Assembly (NCBI GenBank): GCA_029782355.1
Contig: JAKOUY010000040.1
Span: forward strand, 62,001-126,000
Direction of reading: 5' to 3'
Origin: Actinomycetes bacterium
Lineage (GTDB): Bacteria; Actinomycetota; Acidimicrobiia; Acidimicrobiales; Ilumatobacteraceae
DNA length: 64,000 nt
Part shown: piece by piece, positions 6,667-63,456 of the stretch
Layout of the letters: the number at the start of each line of letters is the position of its first letter
How positions within the stretch are numbered: position 1 is the stretch's first letter
Position numbers and translations under genes: made by a program
The notes under the pieces: model-generated
Databases searched by the model: none
Told to the model about the DNA's origin: nothing
The model's input: the letters and a program-made list of their open reading frames with translations, nothing else

Positions 6667-7905
6667 TCAGGGATTCCGGTCATCCGCCCCGGATTCGCTG
6701 ACCGGTTCGGCCGCGTCGGGGGCGGTGAGGGCCTGCTCGGCGAGCTTGATCCACGAGCGCACGGCCAGGTCGAGGCCGACATCGGTGCCGGCCGCCTCGC
6801 TGAGGTACCAGCGGTGCTCGAGGATCTGGTGGTAGATCTCGGCCGGCTCCAGCTTGCCGACCAGGTCGGCGGGGATCGCCGCCAGCGCCGGTTGGAACCG
6901 CTCGGACAACCACAGATCGGCGATGATCACCGGGCGCTGCTTGGCGCCCATCCGCTGCTCGGTGACCACGCCGTAGCGCTGGACGTCCTGCAGCAGGCGG
7001 CGAGCCTGGTTCTCCCCGGTGCGCAGCCCGGTCAGCTCGAACAGCTCACGGGCATGGAAGCCGTGCTCGACCACCCGCGGGACGAGCCGCAGGTGGGTCC
7101 CGCCGGCCGTGGTCTCCAGGTCGATCTCCTCGGCATCGAAGCCGAGCTCGTGCAGCCGGTCGAGACGCTGGGCGACGCGGAACGACTCGTCGACGTGGAA
7201 CTCCTCGGTGCCGGTCAGTTCGAGCCACAGCCGGGCGTAGGTCTCCTCGATCGCCAGGGCGACCTGCCACGGGTCGACCTCGTCGCTGAGCCGGCCGGCG
7301 GCCTGCAGGTCGAGCAAGCCACCGGCCACGTTCTCCGTGGCGATCGACAGGTCGAGCAGCCGTTGCCCGTCGGTCAGCTCGGCATGGCGCTCGCCGGTCT
7401 CCAGGTCGATGATGAACGCCGACAGTGCCCCGGCGTCGCGGCGGAACAGCGTGTTGGACAGCGAGCAGTCACCCCAGAAGAACCCGGCGAGGTGCAGGCG
7501 GACCAGCAGGCCGGTGAGCGCATCGAGCAGCCGCTCGCCGAGCGACGGGATCCGCAGACCACGCCCGGCCAGCAACGTCCGGTACGGCAGGGAGTAGTCG
7601 AGAAAGCGGGTGATCAGCAGGCCGTCCTGGCCGCGCGGACGGTCGGTGACCACCCCGACGATCTCCACGGTGGGCACGCCGGCCTCGTGCAGCTCGCGCA
7701 GCAGGCGGGACTCGCGCTCGGCGAGCCGGTCGGGCAGCTCCTTGACCACGTACGACACCGGGTCGAGCTCGACCAGTCGCACCTCGTGGCGGTGCAGCCC
7801 GGCAACCGGCTGCAGGTGATCGAGCTGCCATGAGCCGAGCGGATCGGCGAGCGGCCAGCCGACCACCGCCGGGTGCTCGCTCGGCTTGGAGAGCTGCAGG
7901 CGCAT
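6667..7905 (-). CDS. DUF4032 protein with LPS-kinase-like (protein-kinase fold) domain
   Basis: This 412-residue protein matches the actinobacterial DUF4032 architecture, an N-terminal Kdo/WaaP-type kinase-fold domain followed by the DUF4032 domain. A full kinase residue set is visible: a Lys in YVVKELP (K55), acidic residues in AERESRLL, a catalytic loop WGDCSLSN (D146, N151) and a metal-binding Asp in FIIDLETGE (D167). The C-terminal 170 residues contain GLRTGENQARRLL and HRWYLSEAAG. It starts 12 bases after the ABC ATPase gene, so it probably shares the sugar-transport transcript. The substrate is unknown; a role as a sugar kinase or regulator is inference from position. Confidence 0.7.
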   Translation of the reverse strand: MRLQLSKPSEHPAVVGWPLADPLGSWQLDHLQPVAGLHRHEVRLVELDPVSYVVKELPDRLAERESRLLRELHEAGVPTVEIVGVVTDRPRGQDGLLITRFLDYSLPYRTLLAGRGLRIPSLGERLLDALTGLLVRLHLAGFFWGDCSLSNTLFRRDAGALSAFIIDLETGERHAELTDGQRLLDLSIATENVAGGLLDLQAAGRLSDEVDPWQVALAIEETYARLWLELTGTEEFHVDESFRVAQRLDRLHELGFDAEEIDLETTAGGTHLRLVPRVVEHGFHARELFELTGLRTGENQARRLLQDVQRYGVVTEQRMGAKQRPVIIADLWLSERFQPALAAIPADLVGKLEPAEIYHQILEHRWYLSEAAGTDVGLDLAVRSWIKLAEQALTAPDAAEPVSESGADDRNP

Positions 7906-7917
7906 CCCCCGGGGCGA

Positions 7918-9117
7918 TCAGCCCTTGTCCAGCTCGTTCGGCGAGCTGGAATCGGTGACCCGACCGGCGGCGTCGCGGCCGATGGCCAGGCCGGTGTCCA
8001 GGTCGAACAGGTGGACCCGATCGATGTCGACGGGCAGCTCGACCGTGGAGAACACCTCGACCTTGCGGCGCGGGTCCATGCTGGCGATGACCATCGAGGT
8101 CGGTTTGTCCGACTGCTCGACGCCGGTGTCGATGGCGCGCACCGCCGGAGCATTCACCGTGCCGTGGACCAGCAGCTCGCTGCCCAGCATCTCGACCAGC
8201 TCGACCTGCATGGTCAGCCGGCCGCTGCCGTCGCCGCCGAGCGCCTCGGGACGCACGCCGAAGGCGACGTCCCGGCCGATCATCTCGCCGATCCCGGGGA
8301 ACCGGGCCGCGCCGACCGATCCGAGCTCGACGGTCTGGTCACCGATCTGCACGCCGGGGCCGTGGTCGGTGGACACCACCGTGCCACGGACCACGTTCAT
8401 CGACGGCGAGCCGATGAACTGGGCGACGAACAGGTTGTCCGGGCGCTCGTACAGCTCCTGCGGGCTGGCGCACTGCATCAGCACGCCCCGGCGCAGCACG
8501 GCCACCCGGTCGCCCATGGTCATCGCCTCGACCTGGTCGTGGGTCACGTACATGGTGGTCACGCCGAGCCGGCGCTGCAGCCGGGCGATCTCGGCGCGGG
8601 TGTGGACGCGCAGCTTGGCGTCGAGATTGGACAGCGGCTCGTCCATCAGGAACAGCTTCGGGTGACGGACGATGGCCCGGCCCATGGCGACGCGCTGGCG
8701 CTGGCCACCGGAGAGCTGGCCGGGCTTGCGGTCGAGGACCTTGTCCAGCTCGAGCAGCTCGGCGACCTCTTTGACCTTCTGGGCGATCTCCGCCTTGGGG
8801 GTCTTGCGCAGCTTCATGGCGAAGGCGATGTTGTCGCCGACGGTCATGTTCGGGTACAGCGCGTAGCTCTGGAACACCATGGCGATGTCGCGCTGCTGGG
8901 GGCCCATGTCGTTGACCCGCGCCCCGTCGATCAGCAGGTCGCCGCCGGAGATGTCCTCCAGCCCGGCGACCATCCGCAGCACGGTCGACTTGCCGCAGCC
9001 GGACGGCCCGACCAGGACGAGGAACTCGCCGTCCTTGATCTCCAGGTCCAGCCCGGGCACCGCCTCGTAGCCGTTGGCGTAGCGCTTCTGCAGGTTGACC
9101 ATCGTGAGCGTCGACAT
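7918..9117 (-). CDS. sugar ABC transporter ATP-binding protein (UgpC/MsmK type)
   Basis: The product is a 399-residue ATPase subunit for a carbohydrate ABC importer. Visible are Walker A GPSGCGKST, the Q-loop region MVFQSYALYPNMTV, the signature LSGGQRQRVAMGRA, Walker B LFLMDEPLSNLD and the switch His in YVTHDQVEAM. The C-terminal 160 residues form the regulatory TOBE/OB region typical of MalK, UgpC and MsmK. It starts 3 bases after the stop of the second permease. Having its own ATPase means this importer need not share one ATPase among several sugar importers. Confidence 0.93.
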   Translation of the reverse strand: MSTLTMVNLQKRYANGYEAVPGLDLEIKDGEFLVLVGPSGCGKSTVLRMVAGLEDISGGDLLIDGARVNDMGPQQRDIAMVFQSYALYPNMTVGDNIAFAMKLRKTPKAEIAQKVKEVAELLELDKVLDRKPGQLSGGQRQRVAMGRAIVRHPKLFLMDEPLSNLDAKLRVHTRAEIARLQRRLGVTTMYVTHDQVEAMTMGDRVAVLRRGVLMQCASPQELYERPDNLFVAQFIGSPSMNVVRGTVVSTDHGPGVQIGDQTVELGSVGAARFPGIGEMIGRDVAFGVRPEALGGDGSGRLTMQVELVEMLGSELLVHGTVNAPAVRAIDTGVEQSDKPTSMVIASMDPRRKVEVFSTVELPVDIDRVHLFDLDTGLAIGRDAAGRVTDSSSPNELDKG

Positions 9118-55785: not shown

Positions 55786-57159
55786 ATGGCTGATGAAGGA
55801 TGGCGTCGGCGCCGGGACGAGGACGACTTCGGACCGCCGCTGTTCGCCGATGAGCCCACCGGGCAGGTGCCCCGCAGCGAGCTCTCGTTCGGCGACGGCG
55901 ACACCGGCCCGCTGCCGCACTGGACCGAGCCGCCCACGGGCGAGATGCCGCGCCTGCTCAGCAAGCCGGCCGAGCACGACGACGTCGACGTGTGGTCGAG
56001 CTTCTCCGACCAGGGCCCGGTGTGGGGCGACGACTCGGGCGGCACGGGCGGCGCCGGCGGCTACGCCGACCCGCCCCCGGCGCGTGACCCGTCGGGCTCG
56101 ATGGGCGCCCTCGACGATCCGTACCACGACGAGTCGGCGCCGGTGCGCCGCGAGCCGGGCCGGATCCAGATCGGCACCGACCCCACCGGCGGCGAGCCGC
56201 GTCCGGCTCCGGCCGGTCGCCGGAGGCCCGGCGAATCGGCGGCCCGCGGCTCGCGCCGTCCGGTGGCCGGACCGCGTGGCGGTCAGCGCCGCCCCGTCGC
56301 CGCCACTGCCTCGGCGGGCGGGCGGGACATGCCCACGGCGGTGGCGGTCGGCCTCGGCATCGCCGCCCTGTTCCTCGTCGCCGTGCGCTGGAAGCCGGAG
56401 GCCGCCCTGGCCATCGCCGTGCTGGTGCTCGGCTTGGCGGCCGTCGAGTTCTTCGACAAGGTGACCGAGAAGGGCTATCAGCCGGCCACCATCGCCGGCA
56501 TCCTGGCCTGCGTGGCCATGCCGCTGGCGGCGTGGTGGGTCGGCCCAGGAGCCATCCCGCTGGTCGTGGTGCTCACCCTGCTGGCCGCCTGCGTCACGTT
56601 CCTGGCGTCGCACGGCATCGAAGCCAACCCGTTGCCGAATGCGGCCATCACGATGCTCGGCGTGTCGTGGGTCGGGGTGCTGGGCGGGTTCGCCGGGTTG
56701 ATCCTGCGCTGGTCGAAGTTCGGCGGGCCGGTGGGGACCGACACGCTGACGCTCATCGCCGTGGGCGTGGCCCTCAACGACATCGGTGCCTTCTTCGTCG
56801 GCCGTGCCGTGGGCCGGCGCCCGCTGCGCGCCTGGGTCAGCCCGGGCAAGACCGTCGAGGGGTTCCTCGGGGGCACCGTGCTGACCGTGGTGGCCATGCT
56901 GCTGGTCGGGGCGTTCAAGTGGTCGGACTCCTGGACCAAGACCTCGCACCTGTTCCTGCTCGGGGTGGTCATCGCCATCGCCGCCCCGCTCGGCGACCTC
57001 GTCGAGAGCATGTTCAAGCGCAACCTCGACATCAAGGACTTCGGCACGCTGGTCCGCGGCCACGGTGGGGTACTCGACCGCTTCGACGGGTACCTGTTCA
57101 CCTTGCCGGCGGTCTACTACCTGGCCCACGTGCTGTTCCACATCCCTGCCTCGTTGTAG
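55786..57159 (+). CDS. cdsA: phosphatidate cytidylyltransferase with disordered N-terminal extension
   Basis: This 457-residue protein makes CDP-diacylglycerol from phosphatidate and CTP. Residues 1 to about 180 are polar, with many Gly, Pro and Asp, and look disordered. About seven or eight membrane helices follow. The family signature SMFKRNLDIKDFGTLVRGHGGVLDRFDG is complete, and SPGKTVEGFLGG precedes it. Usual length is about 270-290 without the extension. It starts 18 bases after frr. Confidence 0.94.
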   Translation: MADEGWRRRRDEDDFGPPLFADEPTGQVPRSELSFGDGDTGPLPHWTEPPTGEMPRLLSKPAEHDDVDVWSSFSDQGPVWGDDSGGTGGAGGYADPPPARDPSGSMGALDDPYHDESAPVRREPGRIQIGTDPTGGEPRPAPAGRRRPGESAARGSRRPVAGPRGGQRRPVAATASAGGRDMPTAVAVGLGIAALFLVAVRWKPEAALAIAVLVLGLAAVEFFDKVTEKGYQPATIAGILACVAMPLAAWWVGPGAIPLVVVLTLLAACVTFLASHGIEANPLPNAAITMLGVSWVGVLGGFAGLILRWSKFGGPVGTDTLTLIAVGVALNDIGAFFVGRAVGRRPLRAWVSPGKTVEGFLGGTVLTVVAMLLVGAFKWSDSWTKTSHLFLLGVVIAIAAPLGDLVESMFKRNLDIKDFGTLVRGHGGVLDRFDGYLFTLPAVYYLAHVLFHIPASL

Positions 57160-57219
57160 GCACGGCCGGCGCCGGGGGCGGTGTGTCCGCCCGTCGGCGC
57201 TGCGAGACTGGCGTCCGCC

Positions 57220-58380
57220 ATGCCTGCCACTCGTGTCGTGCTCGCCGGGTCGTCCGGGTCGATCGGTCGCCAGACGCTCGACATCGTCCGCGCCCGTCCG
57301 GAGCGCTTCGAGGTCGTCGCCGTGGCGGTGGCCGCGTCGGCCGACGTGGTCATCGCCCAGGCTCGTGAGTTCCGTCCGGAGCTGGTGGCCGTCGCCGATC
57401 CCGGAGCCCGCCGTCGGGTCGCCGAGGCGTTGCGCGGCAGCGCCATCGAGGTGGTCGACGACGTCACCGTGGCGATCCCGGGTGCCGACGTGGTGGTCAA
57501 CGCCGTGGTCGGCTTCGCCGGGCTCCCGGTCACGGTGGCCACCCTGCGGGCCGGCCGGCGTCTCGGTCTGGCCAACAAGGAGAGCCTGATCGCCGCCGGC
57601 CCGGTGGTCCAGCCGCTGCGAGCCACGCCGGGGGCCGAGTTGGTGCCGGTCGACAGCGAGCACTGCGCGCTGCACCAGTGCCTGCGCTCGTCGGGCGATG
57701 CCGAGCGGGAGCTCTCCCGCCTGGTGCTGACGGCCAGCGGCGGTCCGTTTCGTGGGCGCACGGCGGCCGAGCTGGCCGACGTCACCGTTGCGCAGGCCCT
57801 GGCCCACCCGACGTGGAGCATGGGTCCGAAGATCACGGTCGACTCCAGCACGCTGATGAACAAGGGCCTGGAGGTGATCGAGGCCCACGAGCTGTTCGGG
57901 GTCGACTACGACCGCATCGAGGTGGTGGTCCACCCGCAGTCGGTGGTCCACTCGATGGTCGAGTTCTCCGACGGCTCGACGATCGCCCAGCTCAGCATGC
58001 CGGACATGCGCCTGCCCATCGGGTACGCCTTGGACTACCCGCGGCGACTCGATCTGGCCCATGGGAGGATCGACTGGACGGAGGTCGCCCGCCTGGACTT
58101 CGCCGCCCCCGATCGGTCGACGTTCCGCTGCCTCGACCTGGCCTACGCCGCCGGCCGGGAGGGTGGCGCCGCCCCCGCCTGGCTCAGCGCGGCCAACGAG
58201 GTTGCCGTGCAGGCGTTCCTCGACGGTCGGCTGACGTGGCCGGCTATCGCCGAGGTCAACGCCGCGGCACTCGACGCGTTCGAGCCCGTGACCCTGTCCA
58301 GCGTCGACGACGTGGTGGCGACCGATGCCGCCGGGCGCCGAGTGGCAACATCGATCATCGAGCAAAGGACGGCTGCGTGA
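57220..58380 (+). CDS. dxr: 1-deoxy-D-xylulose 5-phosphate reductoisomerase
   Basis: This 386-residue enzyme makes MEP from DXP, the committed step of the MEP pathway. The NADPH-binding start is RVVLAGSSGSIGRQTLDIVR, followed by GLANKESLIAAG, VPVDSEHCALHQCL (metal region, with C where S is common), TASGGPF, HPTWSMGPKITVDSSTLMNKGLEVIEA and HPQSVVHSMVEF. ATG 57220 is preferred to an upstream in-frame ATG because MPATRVVLAGSSG is the usual start. It overlaps rseP by GTGA. Confidence 0.95.
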   Translation: MPATRVVLAGSSGSIGRQTLDIVRARPERFEVVAVAVAASADVVIAQAREFRPELVAVADPGARRRVAEALRGSAIEVVDDVTVAIPGADVVVNAVVGFAGLPVTVATLRAGRRLGLANKESLIAAGPVVQPLRATPGAELVPVDSEHCALHQCLRSSGDAERELSRLVLTASGGPFRGRTAAELADVTVAQALAHPTWSMGPKITVDSSTLMNKGLEVIEAHELFGVDYDRIEVVVHPQSVVHSMVEFSDGSTIAQLSMPDMRLPIGYALDYPRRLDLAHGRIDWTEVARLDFAAPDRSTFRCLDLAYAAGREGGAAPAWLSAANEVAVQAFLDGRLTWPAIAEVNAAALDAFEPVTLSSVDDVVATDAAGRRVATSIIEQRTAA

Positions 58381-59627
58381 CCGACGCCTATGTGAAGCTG
58401 CGCAACGAGGTGATGGCGGGCGGGACCGAGGGCCCGGATGGCGGCGCGCCCGTCTCCGGTGCCCGAGCGGTGCTGGGTCTCGGCATCATCGCCGCCCTGC
58501 TGGTGTGGCTGGCCGCCACCAACATCTGGATGTTCGTCTTCGCCGTCGGCATCCTGGTCTCGATCTTCCTCCACGAGCTCGGCCACTTCAGCACCGCCAA
58601 GCTCACCGGGATGAAGGCCACCCAGTTCTTCCTGTTCATGGGTCCGAAGCTGTGGAGCTTCCGGCGCGGCGAGACCGAGTACGGGGTTCGTGCCTACCCG
58701 GTCGGTGCGTTCGTCCGGATCATCGGGATGAACAACCTCGACGAGGTCGATCCGGCCGACGAACCGCGGGCCTACCGAACCAAGAGCTTCCCCCGGCGCC
58801 TGCTGGTTATCACGGCCGGTTCGCTGATGCACATGATCCTGGCCGTCGCCCTGCTGTTCGGCGTGTACGCGGTCAACGGTCGGCGGGTGTCGGCCGAGCG
58901 GGTGCGCATCGCCAGCGTGGTCGAGTCCGGCCCGGCAGCCAGCCAGGGGGTCCGCCCCGACGACGTGGTCATGGCGATGGACGGTGCCCGGCAGACGTCG
59001 GGCAGCCAGTTCGTGGCAGCCATCCGCACCCACCGTCCCGGCGATGTCGTCCGCCTCACCCTGCTCGGCCCCGACGGCACGACGCGTGAGGTCGCCGTGA
59101 CCCTCGCCGGCCGGCCCGATGATCCCGCCGCCGGCTTCCTCGGGGTCAGCAGCGGCACGGAGCTGCACTGGAACCAGGAGTCGGTGTCGTCGGCCGCCGT
59201 GCACAGCGTGACCGATCTCGGCCACATCATGTGGCAGTCGGTCGGCGGGCTGGTCACCATCGCCAACCCGGTGAACATCATCCATCACCTCACCGATCGC
59301 AACGCCGACCCGACCACCCAGCCGGGCACGCTGGTGGGGGCCACCAAGTTCAGCTCGGTGATCGGCTCCGAGCTGGGGTTCTCCGGGGTGATGCTGCTGC
59401 TCGCCGGGTTCAACGTGTTCATCGGGTTGTTCAACATGGTCCCGTTGCTGCCCTTCGACGGTGGCCACGCGGCGATCGCCGTGTACGAGCGGCTGCGCTC
59501 GCGGCGTGGCCGGCAGTATCACGCCGACGTCCGCAAGCTGATCCCGGTGTCGATGGTGACCCTCGGGTTCCTCGTGTTCCTGTTCATGTCGGCGCTGTAC
59601 CTCGACATCGCCAGGCCGGTGAAGTGA
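58377..59627 (+). CDS. rseP: RseP-type site-2 intramembrane metalloprotease
   Basis: The product is a 416-residue zinc protease that cuts within the membrane, such as anti-sigma factors. The zinc motif is HELGH in SIFLHELGHFSTAKLTGM and the third-ligand region NMVPLLPFDGGH. A PDZ domain lies between (SAERVRIASVVESGPAASQGVRPDDVVMAMDG). Four membrane helices are predicted. GTG 58377 overlaps dxr (GTGA), and its stop overlaps ispG (TGATG). Confidence 0.93.
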   Translation: MTDAYVKLRNEVMAGGTEGPDGGAPVSGARAVLGLGIIAALLVWLAATNIWMFVFAVGILVSIFLHELGHFSTAKLTGMKATQFFLFMGPKLWSFRRGETEYGVRAYPVGAFVRIIGMNNLDEVDPADEPRAYRTKSFPRRLLVITAGSLMHMILAVALLFGVYAVNGRRVSAERVRIASVVESGPAASQGVRPDDVVMAMDGARQTSGSQFVAAIRTHRPGDVVRLTLLGPDGTTREVAVTLAGRPDDPAAGFLGVSSGTELHWNQESVSSAAVHSVTDLGHIMWQSVGGLVTIANPVNIIHHLTDRNADPTTQPGTLVGATKFSSVIGSELGFSGVMLLLAGFNVFIGLFNMVPLLPFDGGHAAIAVYERLRSRRGRQYHADVRKLIPVSMVTLGFLVFLFMSALYLDIARPVK

Positions 59628-60856
59628 TGCAGGGCGCCGAGTCGCGCTACCCGCGCCGCCCGACCCGCCAGCTGCACGTCGGGTCGGTCGCCGTCGGCGG
59701 TGGAGCGCCGGTCAGCGTGCAGTCGATGACGATCACCAAGACCGCCGACGTCGAGGGCACGCTGGCTCAGATCTACGCCTTGGCTGCAGCGGGGTGCGAC
59801 ATCGTTCGTTGCACCTGCAACGAGGCCGAGGCCGCCGAGGGGCTGGCCCAGATCGTGCCGCGTTCACCGATCCCGGTCATCGCCGACATCCATCACCAGT
59901 ATCGGATGGCCCTGGCGGCGATGGAGGCCGGCGTCCACGGCCTGCGGCTCAACCCGGGGAACATCCGCCGCCCCGAGCACATCAAGGCGGTGGCCAGCGA
60001 GGCCCGCGACCGCGGGCTGCCGATCCGCATCGGGGTCAACGGCGGCTCGCTCGATCCGTCGCTCTACGAGCGCTTCGGCGGGGTCACCCCGGAGGCGATG
60101 GTCGCCTCGGCGTTGCAGGAGATCGCCTACTTCGACGACGTCGGCTTCACCGACTACAAGATCAGCGTCAAGGCCAGCAACGTGCCGCTGATGGTCGAGG
60201 CCTACCGGCAGCTCAGCGAGGCCACCGACGCCCCCTTGCACCTCGGCGTCACCGAGGCCGGTCCGCCCCCCGCCGGGTTGGTCAAGGCCACCGCCGGGAT
60301 GGCCACGCTGCTGCTGGAGGGCATCGGCGACACGATCCGCTACTCGCTGACCGCCGATCCGGTGGAGGAGGCCCGTGCCGGGCGCCAGCTACTGGAGGCC
60401 CTCGGTCTGCGCGAGCGCAAGAACGTCGACCTGATCGCCTGCCCGAGCTGCGGGCGTGCCGAGGTCGACGTGATCGACGTGGCCAACCGGGCGATGGCCG
60501 CATTCGGCGAGCGTCAGCTGCCCCTGCAGGTCGCGGTGATGGGCTGCGTGGTCAACGGTCCCGGCGAGGCGCGCGAAGCGGATCTCGGCATCGCCGCCGG
60601 CAACAAGCGCGGCCACCTGTTCGTCAAGGGTCGCAACGTTGCCGTGGTGCCGGAGTCGGAGATGGTCGATGCCCTCGTCGAGTGGGCCGAGTACATCCAC
60701 GAGCACGGCACCGAGGCCGCCCTGGCCCGAGCCGACGTGACCGTCGCCGAGCGCGAGGCGGCCCGCGACCGCAGCGCCCTGCTGGACGCCAAGGGCGCCG
60801 ACGCCAACCACGCCCAGGAGCGGATCGTCGAGATCCGCCGGACGGTGGCCGAGTGA
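59627..60856 (+). CDS. ispG: 4-hydroxy-3-methylbut-2-enyl-diphosphate synthase
   Basis: This 409-residue [4Fe-4S] enzyme makes HMBPP from MEcPP, late in the MEP pathway. The N-terminal TIM-barrel begins RQLHVGSVAVGGGAPVSVQSMT. Cluster ligands are in LIACPSCGRAEVD and VMGCVVNGPGEA, two Cys plus a third. GLRLNPGNI and GITE-type GVTEAG are also seen. ATG 59627 overlaps the rseP stop. dxr-rseP-ispG is the usual actinobacterial trio. Confidence 0.95.
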   Translation: MQGAESRYPRRPTRQLHVGSVAVGGGAPVSVQSMTITKTADVEGTLAQIYALAAAGCDIVRCTCNEAEAAEGLAQIVPRSPIPVIADIHHQYRMALAAMEAGVHGLRLNPGNIRRPEHIKAVASEARDRGLPIRIGVNGGSLDPSLYERFGGVTPEAMVASALQEIAYFDDVGFTDYKISVKASNVPLMVEAYRQLSEATDAPLHLGVTEAGPPPAGLVKATAGMATLLLEGIGDTIRYSLTADPVEEARAGRQLLEALGLRERKNVDLIACPSCGRAEVDVIDVANRAMAAFGERQLPLQVAVMGCVVNGPGEAREADLGIAAGNKRGHLFVKGRNVAVVPESEMVDALVEWAEYIHEHGTEAALARADVTVAEREAARDRSALLDAKGADANHAQERIVEIRRTVAE

Positions 60857-61638
60857 CGCCCGGCGCGGGTCGGGGTTTCGCACCGCACGAGCATCCGCTG
60901 TTCGAGTTCGATCCGTCGCGTCAGGCGGTCATCAACCCGTCGATCCACGCCGCCCAGCTGGGGTTCCCTCGCCATGCGGTGACCTGCTGGTTCGGCAACG
61001 TGGTCGCCGAGCGCACCGCCGGGTTGGACGTGGTCTACCAGGTGCCGTTCGAGCACGGCGACCACGGCATCTTCGTGGTCGAGCACCGCGGCGTCGCGGT
61101 GGCGCTGGTCAGCCCCGGCGTCGGGGCCCCGGCGGCGGTGACCACGCTGGAGGTGCTGGTCGCCCTCGGGGCGACGTCGATCGTCGGGTGCGGCGGCGCC
61201 GGGATCGTCCGCCCTGGCTTCGACGTCGGTCACGTGCTGGTGCCCACCGGGGCGGTGCGAGACGAGGGGACCAGCTACCACTACGCGCCGGCCGGGGAGC
61301 CGGTGGCTCCCCATCCGCGGGCGCTGGCGGCCATCGACGCCGTCCTGGCCGAGGCGGGCGTGCCCCACGACCGCGGCCTGACCTGGACCACCGACGCGTT
61401 CTTCCGCGAGACCCCGGCCAAGGTCGAACGGCGCCGCCAGCAGGGCTGCATCACCGTCGAGATGGAGGCCGCGGCGATGTTCGCCGCGGCGGCGTTCCGT
61501 GGCGCGGTGTACGGCCAGCTGCTCTACGCCGGCGACGATGTGTCCGCCGAGGAGTGGGACCATCGACACTGGGAGCGCCAGGGCTCGGCCCGTCAGCGCC
61601 TGCTCGATCTGGCCCTCGACGCCGTCGTCCGCCTGTAG
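60853..61638 (+). CDS. nucleoside phosphorylase (uridine phosphorylase-like)
   Basis: This 261-residue protein of the PNP/UDP phosphorylase family splits nucleosides to base and ribose 1-phosphate. Visible are VALVSPGVGAPAAVTTLEVLVALGATSIVGCGGAG (phosphate-binding and core), and the purine/uridine site CITVEMEAAAMFAAA. The group is closer to uridine or unspecific phosphorylases than to MTA phosphorylases. GTG 60853 overlaps the ispG stop (GTGA). Confidence 0.85.
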   Translation: MTPGAGRGFAPHEHPLFEFDPSRQAVINPSIHAAQLGFPRHAVTCWFGNVVAERTAGLDVVYQVPFEHGDHGIFVVEHRGVAVALVSPGVGAPAAVTTLEVLVALGATSIVGCGGAGIVRPGFDVGHVLVPTGAVRDEGTSYHYAPAGEPVAPHPRALAAIDAVLAEAGVPHDRGLTWTTDAFFRETPAKVERRRQQGCITVEMEAAAMFAAAAFRGAVYGQLLYAGDDVSAEEWDHRHWERQGSARQRLLDLALDAVVRL

Positions 61639-61701
61639 GCCGATCGACTCCGCAGCACGCCGCGGCGCGGGCGTACGATGGCGGTGGCCTGGAGGGTGCG
61701 G

Positions 61702-63456
61702 ATGGAGGCGTCGTCGGTCGGCGAGCGGGGTGCGGGATACCGTGTCCTGGCGTTCGACTTCGACGGCACGCTGACCGACGATCCGCCGCCACGGCCCGCG
61801 GTGCTGGCGGCCCTGGCCGAGGTGCGCCGCTCCGGGATGCGCCTGGTACTGGTCACCGGCCGGATCGTCGCCGAGCTGGCCGCCGTGTTCCCCGACTTCG
61901 AGGACCACGTCGACGCCGTGGTCGCCGAGAACGGTGCCGTGCTCAGCCGCCGGGGCCGGACCGTGCACCTGGCCCGGCCGATCGATCCCCGGCTGCTGGA
62001 CGCCTTGGACGCCGCCGGGGTCGCCAACCGCCGGGGAGAGGTGATCGCCGCCGCCAGCGCGACCGACTACGACGTGATCTGCCGGGAGGTGCGCCGGCTG
62101 GGCCTGACCGTGACCATCGCTCTGAACCGGAACGAGCTGATGCTCGTGCCGGCGGGTGTCACCAAGACGACCGGTCTGCGGGTGGCGCTGTCGGCGCTCG
62201 ACCTGTCGATCCACGACACCGTTGCCGTGGGGGATGCCGACAACGACGTCGACCTGCTCGAGGCGGCCGAGCTCGGTGTGGCCGTGGCGACGGCCGTCCC
62301 GGCGCTACGCGAGCGGGCCGACCTGGTCCTCACCGGCGGCGCGGGTGACGGGATTGTCGAACTGTGCGCCAGCGGTCTCCTGGCGGATCGGGCTGCGCAC
62401 CGGACCATGCGCCGCCGCCTGGTGCTGGGGCCCGACGCGTCCGGGGCGCCGGTCGAGCTGCCCGCAGCACCGATCGACATCATCGTCGCCGGGTCCAGCG
62501 GTTCGGGGAAGTCGTACGTCGCCGGGTTGCTGGCCGAGCAACTCATCCTCCACGGCTACTCGGTGCTGGTCATCGACCCGGAGGGCGACCACGCCGGGAT
62601 GGATTCGTTGCCCGGTGTCGTCGTGGTCGGTGGAGACCGCTATCTGCCGTCGGCACCATCGCTGGTGCTGCTGTTCACCGCCGGGCACGGCTCGGTGGTC
62701 GTCGACCTCTCCCACCTCGACCGGGCGGACCAGGACGCCTACCTGGCGACGTTGCCGGCGGAGATCGAGACCCACCGCCGGCTGACCGGCCAGCCGCACT
62801 GGCTGGTTCTCGACGAGGCGCACCGCACCGCCGGTGGGCAGGGCGTGTCGAAGAGCGAGTACGCGCCGACGCTGAAGGGCCACTGCCTGGTGACCTGGCA
62901 GGTCGGGTGGCTGACCCGCCCACAGCTGATGGCCACCGACGTGATGATCGCCGCCACCAGCCCGGAGCCGCCCGAGGATCTGGCGGCGATGCTCGCCGCC
63001 GTCGGAGCCGGCCAGGTGGCGAGCGCCGCCGTGCTGCTGACCCGCCCTCTCGGTCAGGTGGTCGTGGCCCGTCGGGACCGGCCGGGCGAGTTGGTCGTCG
63101 CCACGCCCACCGAGCGGGCCACGCTGCACACCCGCCACGAGCACAAGTACGAGTTGCACGGTCTCGACGATGCCCACGCCTTCCACGTCCGCGACGGCCA
63201 GGACCGTCCGACCGGCGTCCTGGTGCGCAGCCTCGACGAACTGCGCGAGGTGATCGCCTCGTGCCCGCCGGACGTCCTGATCCACCACTGCCGGGGCGGG
63301 GACTGGTCGCGCTGGGTCGGCGGGGTGTTCCACGACCACGTCCTGGCGGCGGCACTGTCTGCCGCCGAGCGCCGCCTGGTCGAGGGCGGTCCGGTCGCCG
63401 TCGACCCGGTCCGCCAGGACGTCATCGCCGCCCTGCGGGCCCGCCGGGCGACCTGA
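61702..63456 (+). CDS. HAD hydrolase fused to P-loop ATPase and C-terminal domain
   Basis: This 584-residue protein combines three modules. A Cof-type HAD phosphatase comes first (nucleophile AFDFDGTLTDD, motif III VGDADNDVDLLEAAELGVAV). A HerA/DUF87-like ATPase follows with Walker A AGSSGSGKSYVAG, Walker B LVIDPEGDHAGM-like strand and WLVLDEAHR. The C-terminal domain has HKYELHGLDDAHAFHVR, LVRSLDELREVIAS and HHCRGGDWSRWVGGVFHD, resembling DUF5752. ATG 61702 is chosen for GGAGG 7 bases upstream; a -10-like TACGAT (61674-61679) precedes it. The fusion of phosphatase and DNA-type ATPase is unusual, and its function is unknown. Confidence 0.8.
   Translation: MEASSVGERGAGYRVLAFDFDGTLTDDPPPRPAVLAALAEVRRSGMRLVLVTGRIVAELAAVFPDFEDHVDAVVAENGAVLSRRGRTVHLARPIDPRLLDALDAAGVANRRGEVIAAASATDYDVICREVRRLGLTVTIALNRNELMLVPAGVTKTTGLRVALSALDLSIHDTVAVGDADNDVDLLEAAELGVAVATAVPALRERADLVLTGGAGDGIVELCASGLLADRAAHRTMRRRLVLGPDASGAPVELPAAPIDIIVAGSSGSGKSYVAGLLAEQLILHGYSVLVIDPEGDHAGMDSLPGVVVVGGDRYLPSAPSLVLLFTAGHGSVVVDLSHLDRADQDAYLATLPAEIETHRRLTGQPHWLVLDEAHRTAGGQGVSKSEYAPTLKGHCLVTWQVGWLTRPQLMATDVMIAATSPEPPEDLAAMLAAVGAGQVASAAVLLTRPLGQVVVARRDRPGELVVATPTERATLHTRHEHKYELHGLDDAHAFHVRDGQDRPTGVLVRSLDELREVIASCPPDVLIHHCRGGDWSRWVGGVFHDHVLAAALSAAERRLVEGGPVAVDPVRQDVIAALRARRAT

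Follow-up and report, generated by a model that had tools for sequence, protein, structure and literature searches.

The fusion gene and its reading frame

The window, which is the whole stretch of 64,000 nucleotides that was analysed, carries a single uninterrupted reading frame on the forward strand that begins at position 61678 or 61702 and ends at position 63456. The coordinates of the gene and its features are shown in Table 1. The ATG at 61702 is likely to be the true start because it has GGAGG 6 nt ahead of it. The in-frame ATG at 61678 is less favoured, and the protein is probably 584 aa long. Residue numbers in this work follow the 592-codon frame counted from 61678. The gene lies 63 nt downstream of a nucleoside-phosphorylase-family gene. 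That gene ends a row of same-strand genes at 55786–61638 that also includes cdsA, dxr, an rseP-like protease gene, and ispG, these four being named from reading of the sequence. The manA gene lies beside the fusion gene and is convergent with it on the opposite strand.

The length of the frame is not by itself evidence for a gene because open frames average 641 aa in GC-rich random 64-kb windows of the same dinucleotide make-up (n = 60). The reality of the gene is settled by homology: two Pfam domains, Hydrolase_3 (E 1.9e-23) and HerA/DUF87 (E 6.6e-9), both exceed their cut-offs in one frame, and full-length homologues occur in many phyla. The AlphaFold2 (AF2) model of the whole protein has a mean pLDDT of 88.8 and a pTM of 0.82. 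Databases name the protein merely 'HAD-IIB family hydrolase', which hides two thirds of it.

Table 1. Features of the fusion gene. Positions are those of the window; residues are numbered from 61678.
Feature	Position	Strand	Basis or remark
Ribosome-binding site, GGAGG (putative)	61691..61695	+	6-nt spacer to ATG 61702; sequence
Whole fusion gene	61702..63456	+	584 codons and stop from the likely start ATG 61702; kept full length in relatives
HAD-IIB (C2B-cap) phosphatase domain	61738..62370	+	residues 21–231; Pfam, NCBIfam, fold, and motifs
Predicted HAD nucleophile D27 and acid/base D29	61756–61764	+	motif conservation
HerA-type RecA/P-loop ATPase core	62416..63159	+	residues 247–494; Pfam DUF87 (E 6.6e-9) and HerA 4d2i fold
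Walker A, GSSGSGKS (K278)	62491..62514	+	K in 100/100 members
DPEGD motif, HerA/VirB4-like, after the second core strand	62575..62589	+	D300 and E302 in 100/100 members
Walker B acidic pair, D379-E380	62812..62817	+	D in 97/100 and E in 100/100 members
RHxxKY motif, bridging the ATPase core and the C-terminal module	63133..63150	+	R486, H487, and Y491 in 100/100 members
OrfY/DUF5752-like helical module, one copy	63175..63453	+	profile matches to DUF5752 and PDB 4cso; AF2 model

The HAD-IIB phosphatase domain

The first module exceeds the cut-off of the NCBIfam model for the HAD-IIB subfamily (TIGR01484; 66.6 against 41.8 bits). HAD motifs I–IV are present (D27, D29, T60, K163, D186, and D190) and are 95–100% conserved among 100 aligned members. 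The closest fold identified by structural comparison of the AF2 model is PH1421 (PDB 1wr8; Z 26.3 over 219 residues), and TA0175 (1kyt) aligns at Z 23.1. The nearest NCBIfam equivalog is the archaeal phosphoglycolate phosphatase model TIGR01487, whose cut-off is missed by the window protein (85.8 against 122.75 bits). Judged from the model, the first module is a small-cap HAD-IIB phosphatase that is nearest to archaeal phosphoglycolate-phosphatase structures. The characterised members of the HAD class with a C2B cap are known to act on small molecules. The substrate would be a small phosphorylated metabolite, and we commit ourselves to nothing narrower.

The HerA-type ATPase core

The second module scores 36.6 bits against the Pfam DUF87 cut-off of 23.2 and consists of a RecA core with Walker A, Walker B, and the HerA-type DPxG(D/E) motif, which places it within the HerA/FtsK superfamily. 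Structural comparison aligned it best with HerA of S. solfataricus (4d2i; Z 22.4, rmsd 3.0, 234 residues aligned), followed by HerA-NurA, SIR2-HerA, DUF4297-HerA, and VirB4. Of the 355 chain residues over which HerA is aligned, no more than about 235 find a match, and the window protein lacks some 120 residues of the HerA core region. The alignment begins only at about chain residue 120 of HerA. The N-terminal HAS barrel of HerA has no counterpart in the model, where the HAD domain occupies that position. Among the 100 members R367 and R486 are conserved, and both are candidates for an arginine finger acting in trans. On the modelled fold, the second module is a pared-down HerA-type RecA core without the HerA barrel. 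The formation of a ring could differ from that in HerA because the barrel and the approximately 120 residues are absent.

The C-terminal OrfY/DUF5752-like module

The third module was modelled alone by AF2 with a pLDDT of 91.5. It has an invariant H537 and W546 and a near-invariant D542. Profile-profile comparison (hhalign) matched it to DUF5752 (E 8.8e-12, probability 97.5), and a profile search matched it to OrfY (PDB 4cso; E 1.6e-12). The match to 4cso occurs in two places, which shows that OrfY is a two-copy version of the module. DUF5752 proteins are themselves homologues of OrfY (E 1.5e-40). The window protein does not reach the gathering score of DUF5752 (Pfam PF19027; 12.4 against 23 bits), and the best fusion member matches this family at E 9e-6. 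By profile, the third module represents one OrfY/DUF5752-type unit, and 4cso provides the first structural handle on it.

The depositors of 4cso labelled it 'OrfY protein, transcription factor'. This label would fit a machine acting on DNA. Translocation would fall to the HerA core and DNA binding to the OrfY-like module, and the HAD domain would strip a phosphate from the ends of DNA or RNA or from a bound nucleotide, in the style of end-processing HAD/P-loop enzymes such as polynucleotide kinase-phosphatase (PNKP). HerA proteins are DNA translocases and align with the core at Z 20–22, and the layout of PNKP is likewise that of a HAD domain fused with a P-loop domain. We consider such a machine decidedly unlikely since the C2B cap marks a class with small-molecule substrates and the domain matches SPP, MPGP, and sugar phosphatases, the HerA barrel and the insert of about 120 residues are missing, and no nuclease or repair gene recurs beside the fusion. 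The label itself is annotation only, and no supporting paper for it was found in the literature searched.

Conservation and shared inheritance of the fusion

Protein searches identified full-length homologues with 28–47% identity in many phyla, including family- and order-level relatives (G025 and G088). The record titles span Actinomycetota, Cyanobacteria, Pseudomonadota, Planctomycetota, Nitrospirota, Acidobacteriota, Chloroflexota, Myxococcota, Rokubacteria, and a Bacteroidetes MAG. Replicons that carry full-length homologues were found in Synechococcus, Aminobacter, Caballeronia, Sinorhizobium, Agrobacterium, Paraburkholderia, and Nonomuraea.

A scan of the genome collection with the ATPase and C-terminal part as the query gave 367 confirmed relatives. 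The best-matching 80 and two further relatives make up the 82 loci examined, and the HAD domain lies in the same frame in virtually all of these, a selection that could miss rare HAD-less members. The domain was not seen in frame at L068, L078, and L104, which are cut by contig ends, and at L053 and L055, where it lies in a shifted frame; at L042 a closer inspection places it in frame. The copies at L053 and L055 are cyanobacterial and are frameshifted or degenerate around positions 7200–8000, with the HAD and ATPase parts in different frames.

The catalytic residues of both the HAD and the ATPase domains are 95–100% conserved among the 100 aligned members, and the three modules agree in their pairwise distances (correlation r 0.89–0.91). 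The window protein falls inside an actinobacterial clade with 15 members and full support. Judged from these alignments, the three modules have a common history and are inherited as one unit. The earlier note had read the gene as three modules in one frame with catalytic motifs in the first two, and this reading is borne out by the Pfam and NCBIfam matches and by the conserved motifs. The fold comparison narrows its P-loop ATPase to a HerA-type RecA core, and the profile comparison narrows its C-terminal domain to the OrfY/DUF5752 type. The note had also allowed that the parts might prove independent in relatives. The fusion is instead conserved, and a chance fusion or an assembly artefact is ruled out by the full-length architecture across about ten phyla and by the co-inheritance of the modules.

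HAD-IIB enzymes are not known to need ATP, and the HAD part is the best-conserved module, with a mean identity of 0.55 where the ATPase core has 0.40. Both points would suit an uncoupled protein in which the HerA-like part serves oligomerisation or housekeeping and the HAD domain is an ordinary metabolite-repair phosphatase. We regard this arrangement as unlikely since the Walker A lysine, the DPEGD motif, and the Walker B glutamate do not vary across 100 diverse members and would not be needed by a scaffold alone.

The distribution of the fusion is patchy. It was found in 14 of the 396 genomes of the phylum; among near relatives 5 of 100 gave matches, of which only two are full fusions besides that of the window. 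Patchiness of this kind is consistent with an anti-phage or stress-triggered effector like SIR2-HerA or DUF4297-HerA, in which a HerA ring would switch on the HAD domain and so drain the pool of a phosphorylated metabolite or nucleotide. The HerA defence complexes 8xav, 8wld, and 9c1m are among the best folds for the ATPase core, and PADLOC gave weak matches to mad8 and HerA. PADLOC matches at E 1e-20 were nevertheless found in only 3 of the 96 neighbour genes (two mad3 and one reverse transcriptase), and across phyla neither mobile-element nor defence genes recurred as partners. A role in defence is very unlikely.

Genomic neighbourhood

The flanks of relatives were searched up to about 8 kb, or less at contig ends. 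None of manA, the nucleoside phosphorylase, ispG, rseP, dxr, and cdsA recurs near the fusion in the 14 relatives of the phylum. A partnership with manA or with the nucleoside phosphorylase was rejected on this ground. The hint at a sugar phosphate that the earlier note had drawn from manA is not supported, since that gene is convergent on the other strand and is near the fusion in 0 of the 14 relatives. No operon partner is conserved across phyla among the fetched loci, and the protein therefore most simply acts alone.

Of the 17 actinobacterial genomes that carry the fusion, 4 have a universal stress protein (Usp) gene no more than 2 kb away from it, against 0.36 expected (P about 4e-4, uncorrected), and 5 have one within 8 kb (P about 3e-3). 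This proximity is no more than suggestive, since Usp was singled out once the counts for 163 families were in view. The Agrobacterium member also adjoins a Usp gene. No recurrence of Usp was found among 42 co-directional neighbours in the wider clade. The loci with a Usp gene beside the fusion are L133 (G796, on both sides), L137 (G283), L136 (G468), L141 (G383), and L029.

Genes for CBS-domain proteins and P-type ATPases lie near some members, a setting that resembles hypoxia or dormancy gene islands. A search for the DosR-type palindrome near actinobacterial members gave only scattered sites with two mismatches and without pattern. The Paraburkholderia and Synechococcus members (L030 and L022) are located amid oxidative-stress genes for hemerythrin, Mn catalase, flavohaemoprotein, Dps, and rubredoxin.

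The substrate and the trehalose question

TreT is directly preceded by a stand-alone DUF5752 gene in at least 6 of the 10 actinobacterial loci with full-length DUF5752 (L116–L125). Pfam TreT_GT1 was identified beside DUF5752 at L116, L117, L119, L120, L123, and L124, and TreT at L121 by sequence only. L118 has OtsA, and L124 has a trehalose-phosphatase. The position of DUF5752 directly upstream of TreT in most of these loci suggests a role in trehalose metabolism or in its control.

The kinship of the C-terminal module with DUF5752 proteins encoded beside TreT, OtsA, and T6PP genes raises the alternative that the fusion is the trehalose-6-phosphate phosphatase, or one for a closely related disaccharide phosphate, of an unusual trehalose pathway. 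Genes for trehalose-phosphate synthase, a debranching enzyme, and GT4 occur close to the Aminobacter fusion, and the Caballeronia fusion has GT4 genes beside it. The window genome, however, has no homologues of OtsA (PF00982) and OtsB (PF02358), and in 14 of the 17 fusion-bearing actinobacterial genomes OtsB is encoded by a gene of its own. The domain scores as PGPase/Cof. Pfam Trehalose_PPase is absent from the matches of the window protein and gives weak matches in only 5 of 23 members (best E 7.8e-4). We judge this alternative highly improbable. Trehalose-6-phosphate is also unlikely as a general substrate, because of the lack of OtsA and OtsB in the window genome and the separate OtsB in the 14 genomes. 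Most related fusion-bearing genomes do have OtsA/OtsB homologues, unlike the window genome. A sugar phosphate or another small phospho-metabolite is a reasonable substrate on the grounds of the HAD-IIB class and the kinship of the C-terminal module with trehalose-operon proteins, and not on the grounds of manA.

Proposed function of the fusion protein

The gene encodes three modules with predicted folds and intact active sites, which are conserved and inherited together. We tentatively explain it, at somewhat less than an even chance, as a stress-linked stand-alone metabolite phosphatase for which a HerA-type ATPase ring serves as both base and gate. The protein would be a soluble bifunctional enzyme and a single-gene unit. 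The HAD-IIB domain would hydrolyse a small phosphorylated metabolite of the phosphoglycolate or sugar-phosphate type through an aspartyl-phosphate intermediate, seated on the RecA core in place of the N-terminal HerA barrel. The core probably forms a hexameric ring in which ATP would be bound and hydrolysed at the subunit interfaces. Binding or hydrolysis of ATP may set the state of assembly or conformation and thereby gate the phosphatase. The OrfY-like module may close the ring, or it may sense or dock a partner or ligand. The physiological role is likely to be in stress survival or in compatible-solute and carbon-storage metabolism.

Enzymes that dock on HerA rings are known to be carried and activated by them, as in DUF4297-HerA, where assembly of the planar hexamer is reported to turn on both enzymes (PMC11291478). 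Dependence of the phosphatase on ATP, which the earlier note had supposed for the fusion protein, is plausible because both of its active sites have been retained together over large distances, and gating by ATP would be the most economical reason for this retention.

HAD phosphatases normally work without energy input, and HerA-type motors normally act on DNA. Where the two are fused and both sites stay intact, as in about ten phyla, the product would be either a phosphatase under the control of an ATP motor or a motor that delivers dephosphorylation. It is possible, if somewhat unlikely, that the family represents a widespread, undescribed class of ATP-driven phosphatases in which the power strokes or the nucleotide state of a HerA-type ring open and close the HAD-IIB sites and the OrfY-like module reads a sugar or energy signal. 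Dephosphorylation of a metabolite would then be coupled to cellular ATP.

Comparison with known systems

No papers on the HAD-HerA fusion, DUF5752, or OrfY were found in the open literature searched, and as far as that literature shows, the fusion is an undescribed and widespread combination of known domains. The HAD domain is similar to PH1421 (1wr8), TA0175 (1kyt), and TIGR01487 in having a common fold over about 219 residues and the four catalytic motifs. PH1421 and TA0175 are free enzymes, whereas the HAD domain of the window protein forms the N-terminus of a HerA-type ATPase and does not reach the equivalog cut-off. The C-terminal module is homologous by profile to OrfY/DUF5752 (4cso), with which it has the H...D-F/Y-S-x-W pattern in common. 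Those are free proteins with two copies, whereas the window protein has one divergent copy that scores under the Pfam cut-off.

The ATPase core shares the RecA core, Walker A, DPEGD, and Walker B with the HerA translocases (S. solfataricus 4d2i, D. radiodurans, DUF4297-HerA, and SIR2-HerA), with Z 20–22 over about 235 residues. Unlike these, the window protein has a HAD phosphatase in place of the N-terminal barrel, about 120 residues fewer, and another C-terminal module. PNKP, which is a capless HAD phosphatase fused with a P-loop kinase, is similar in layout only, as a HAD phosphatase joined to a P-loop NTPase; the window protein joins a C2B-capped HAD domain to a HerA-type motor core.
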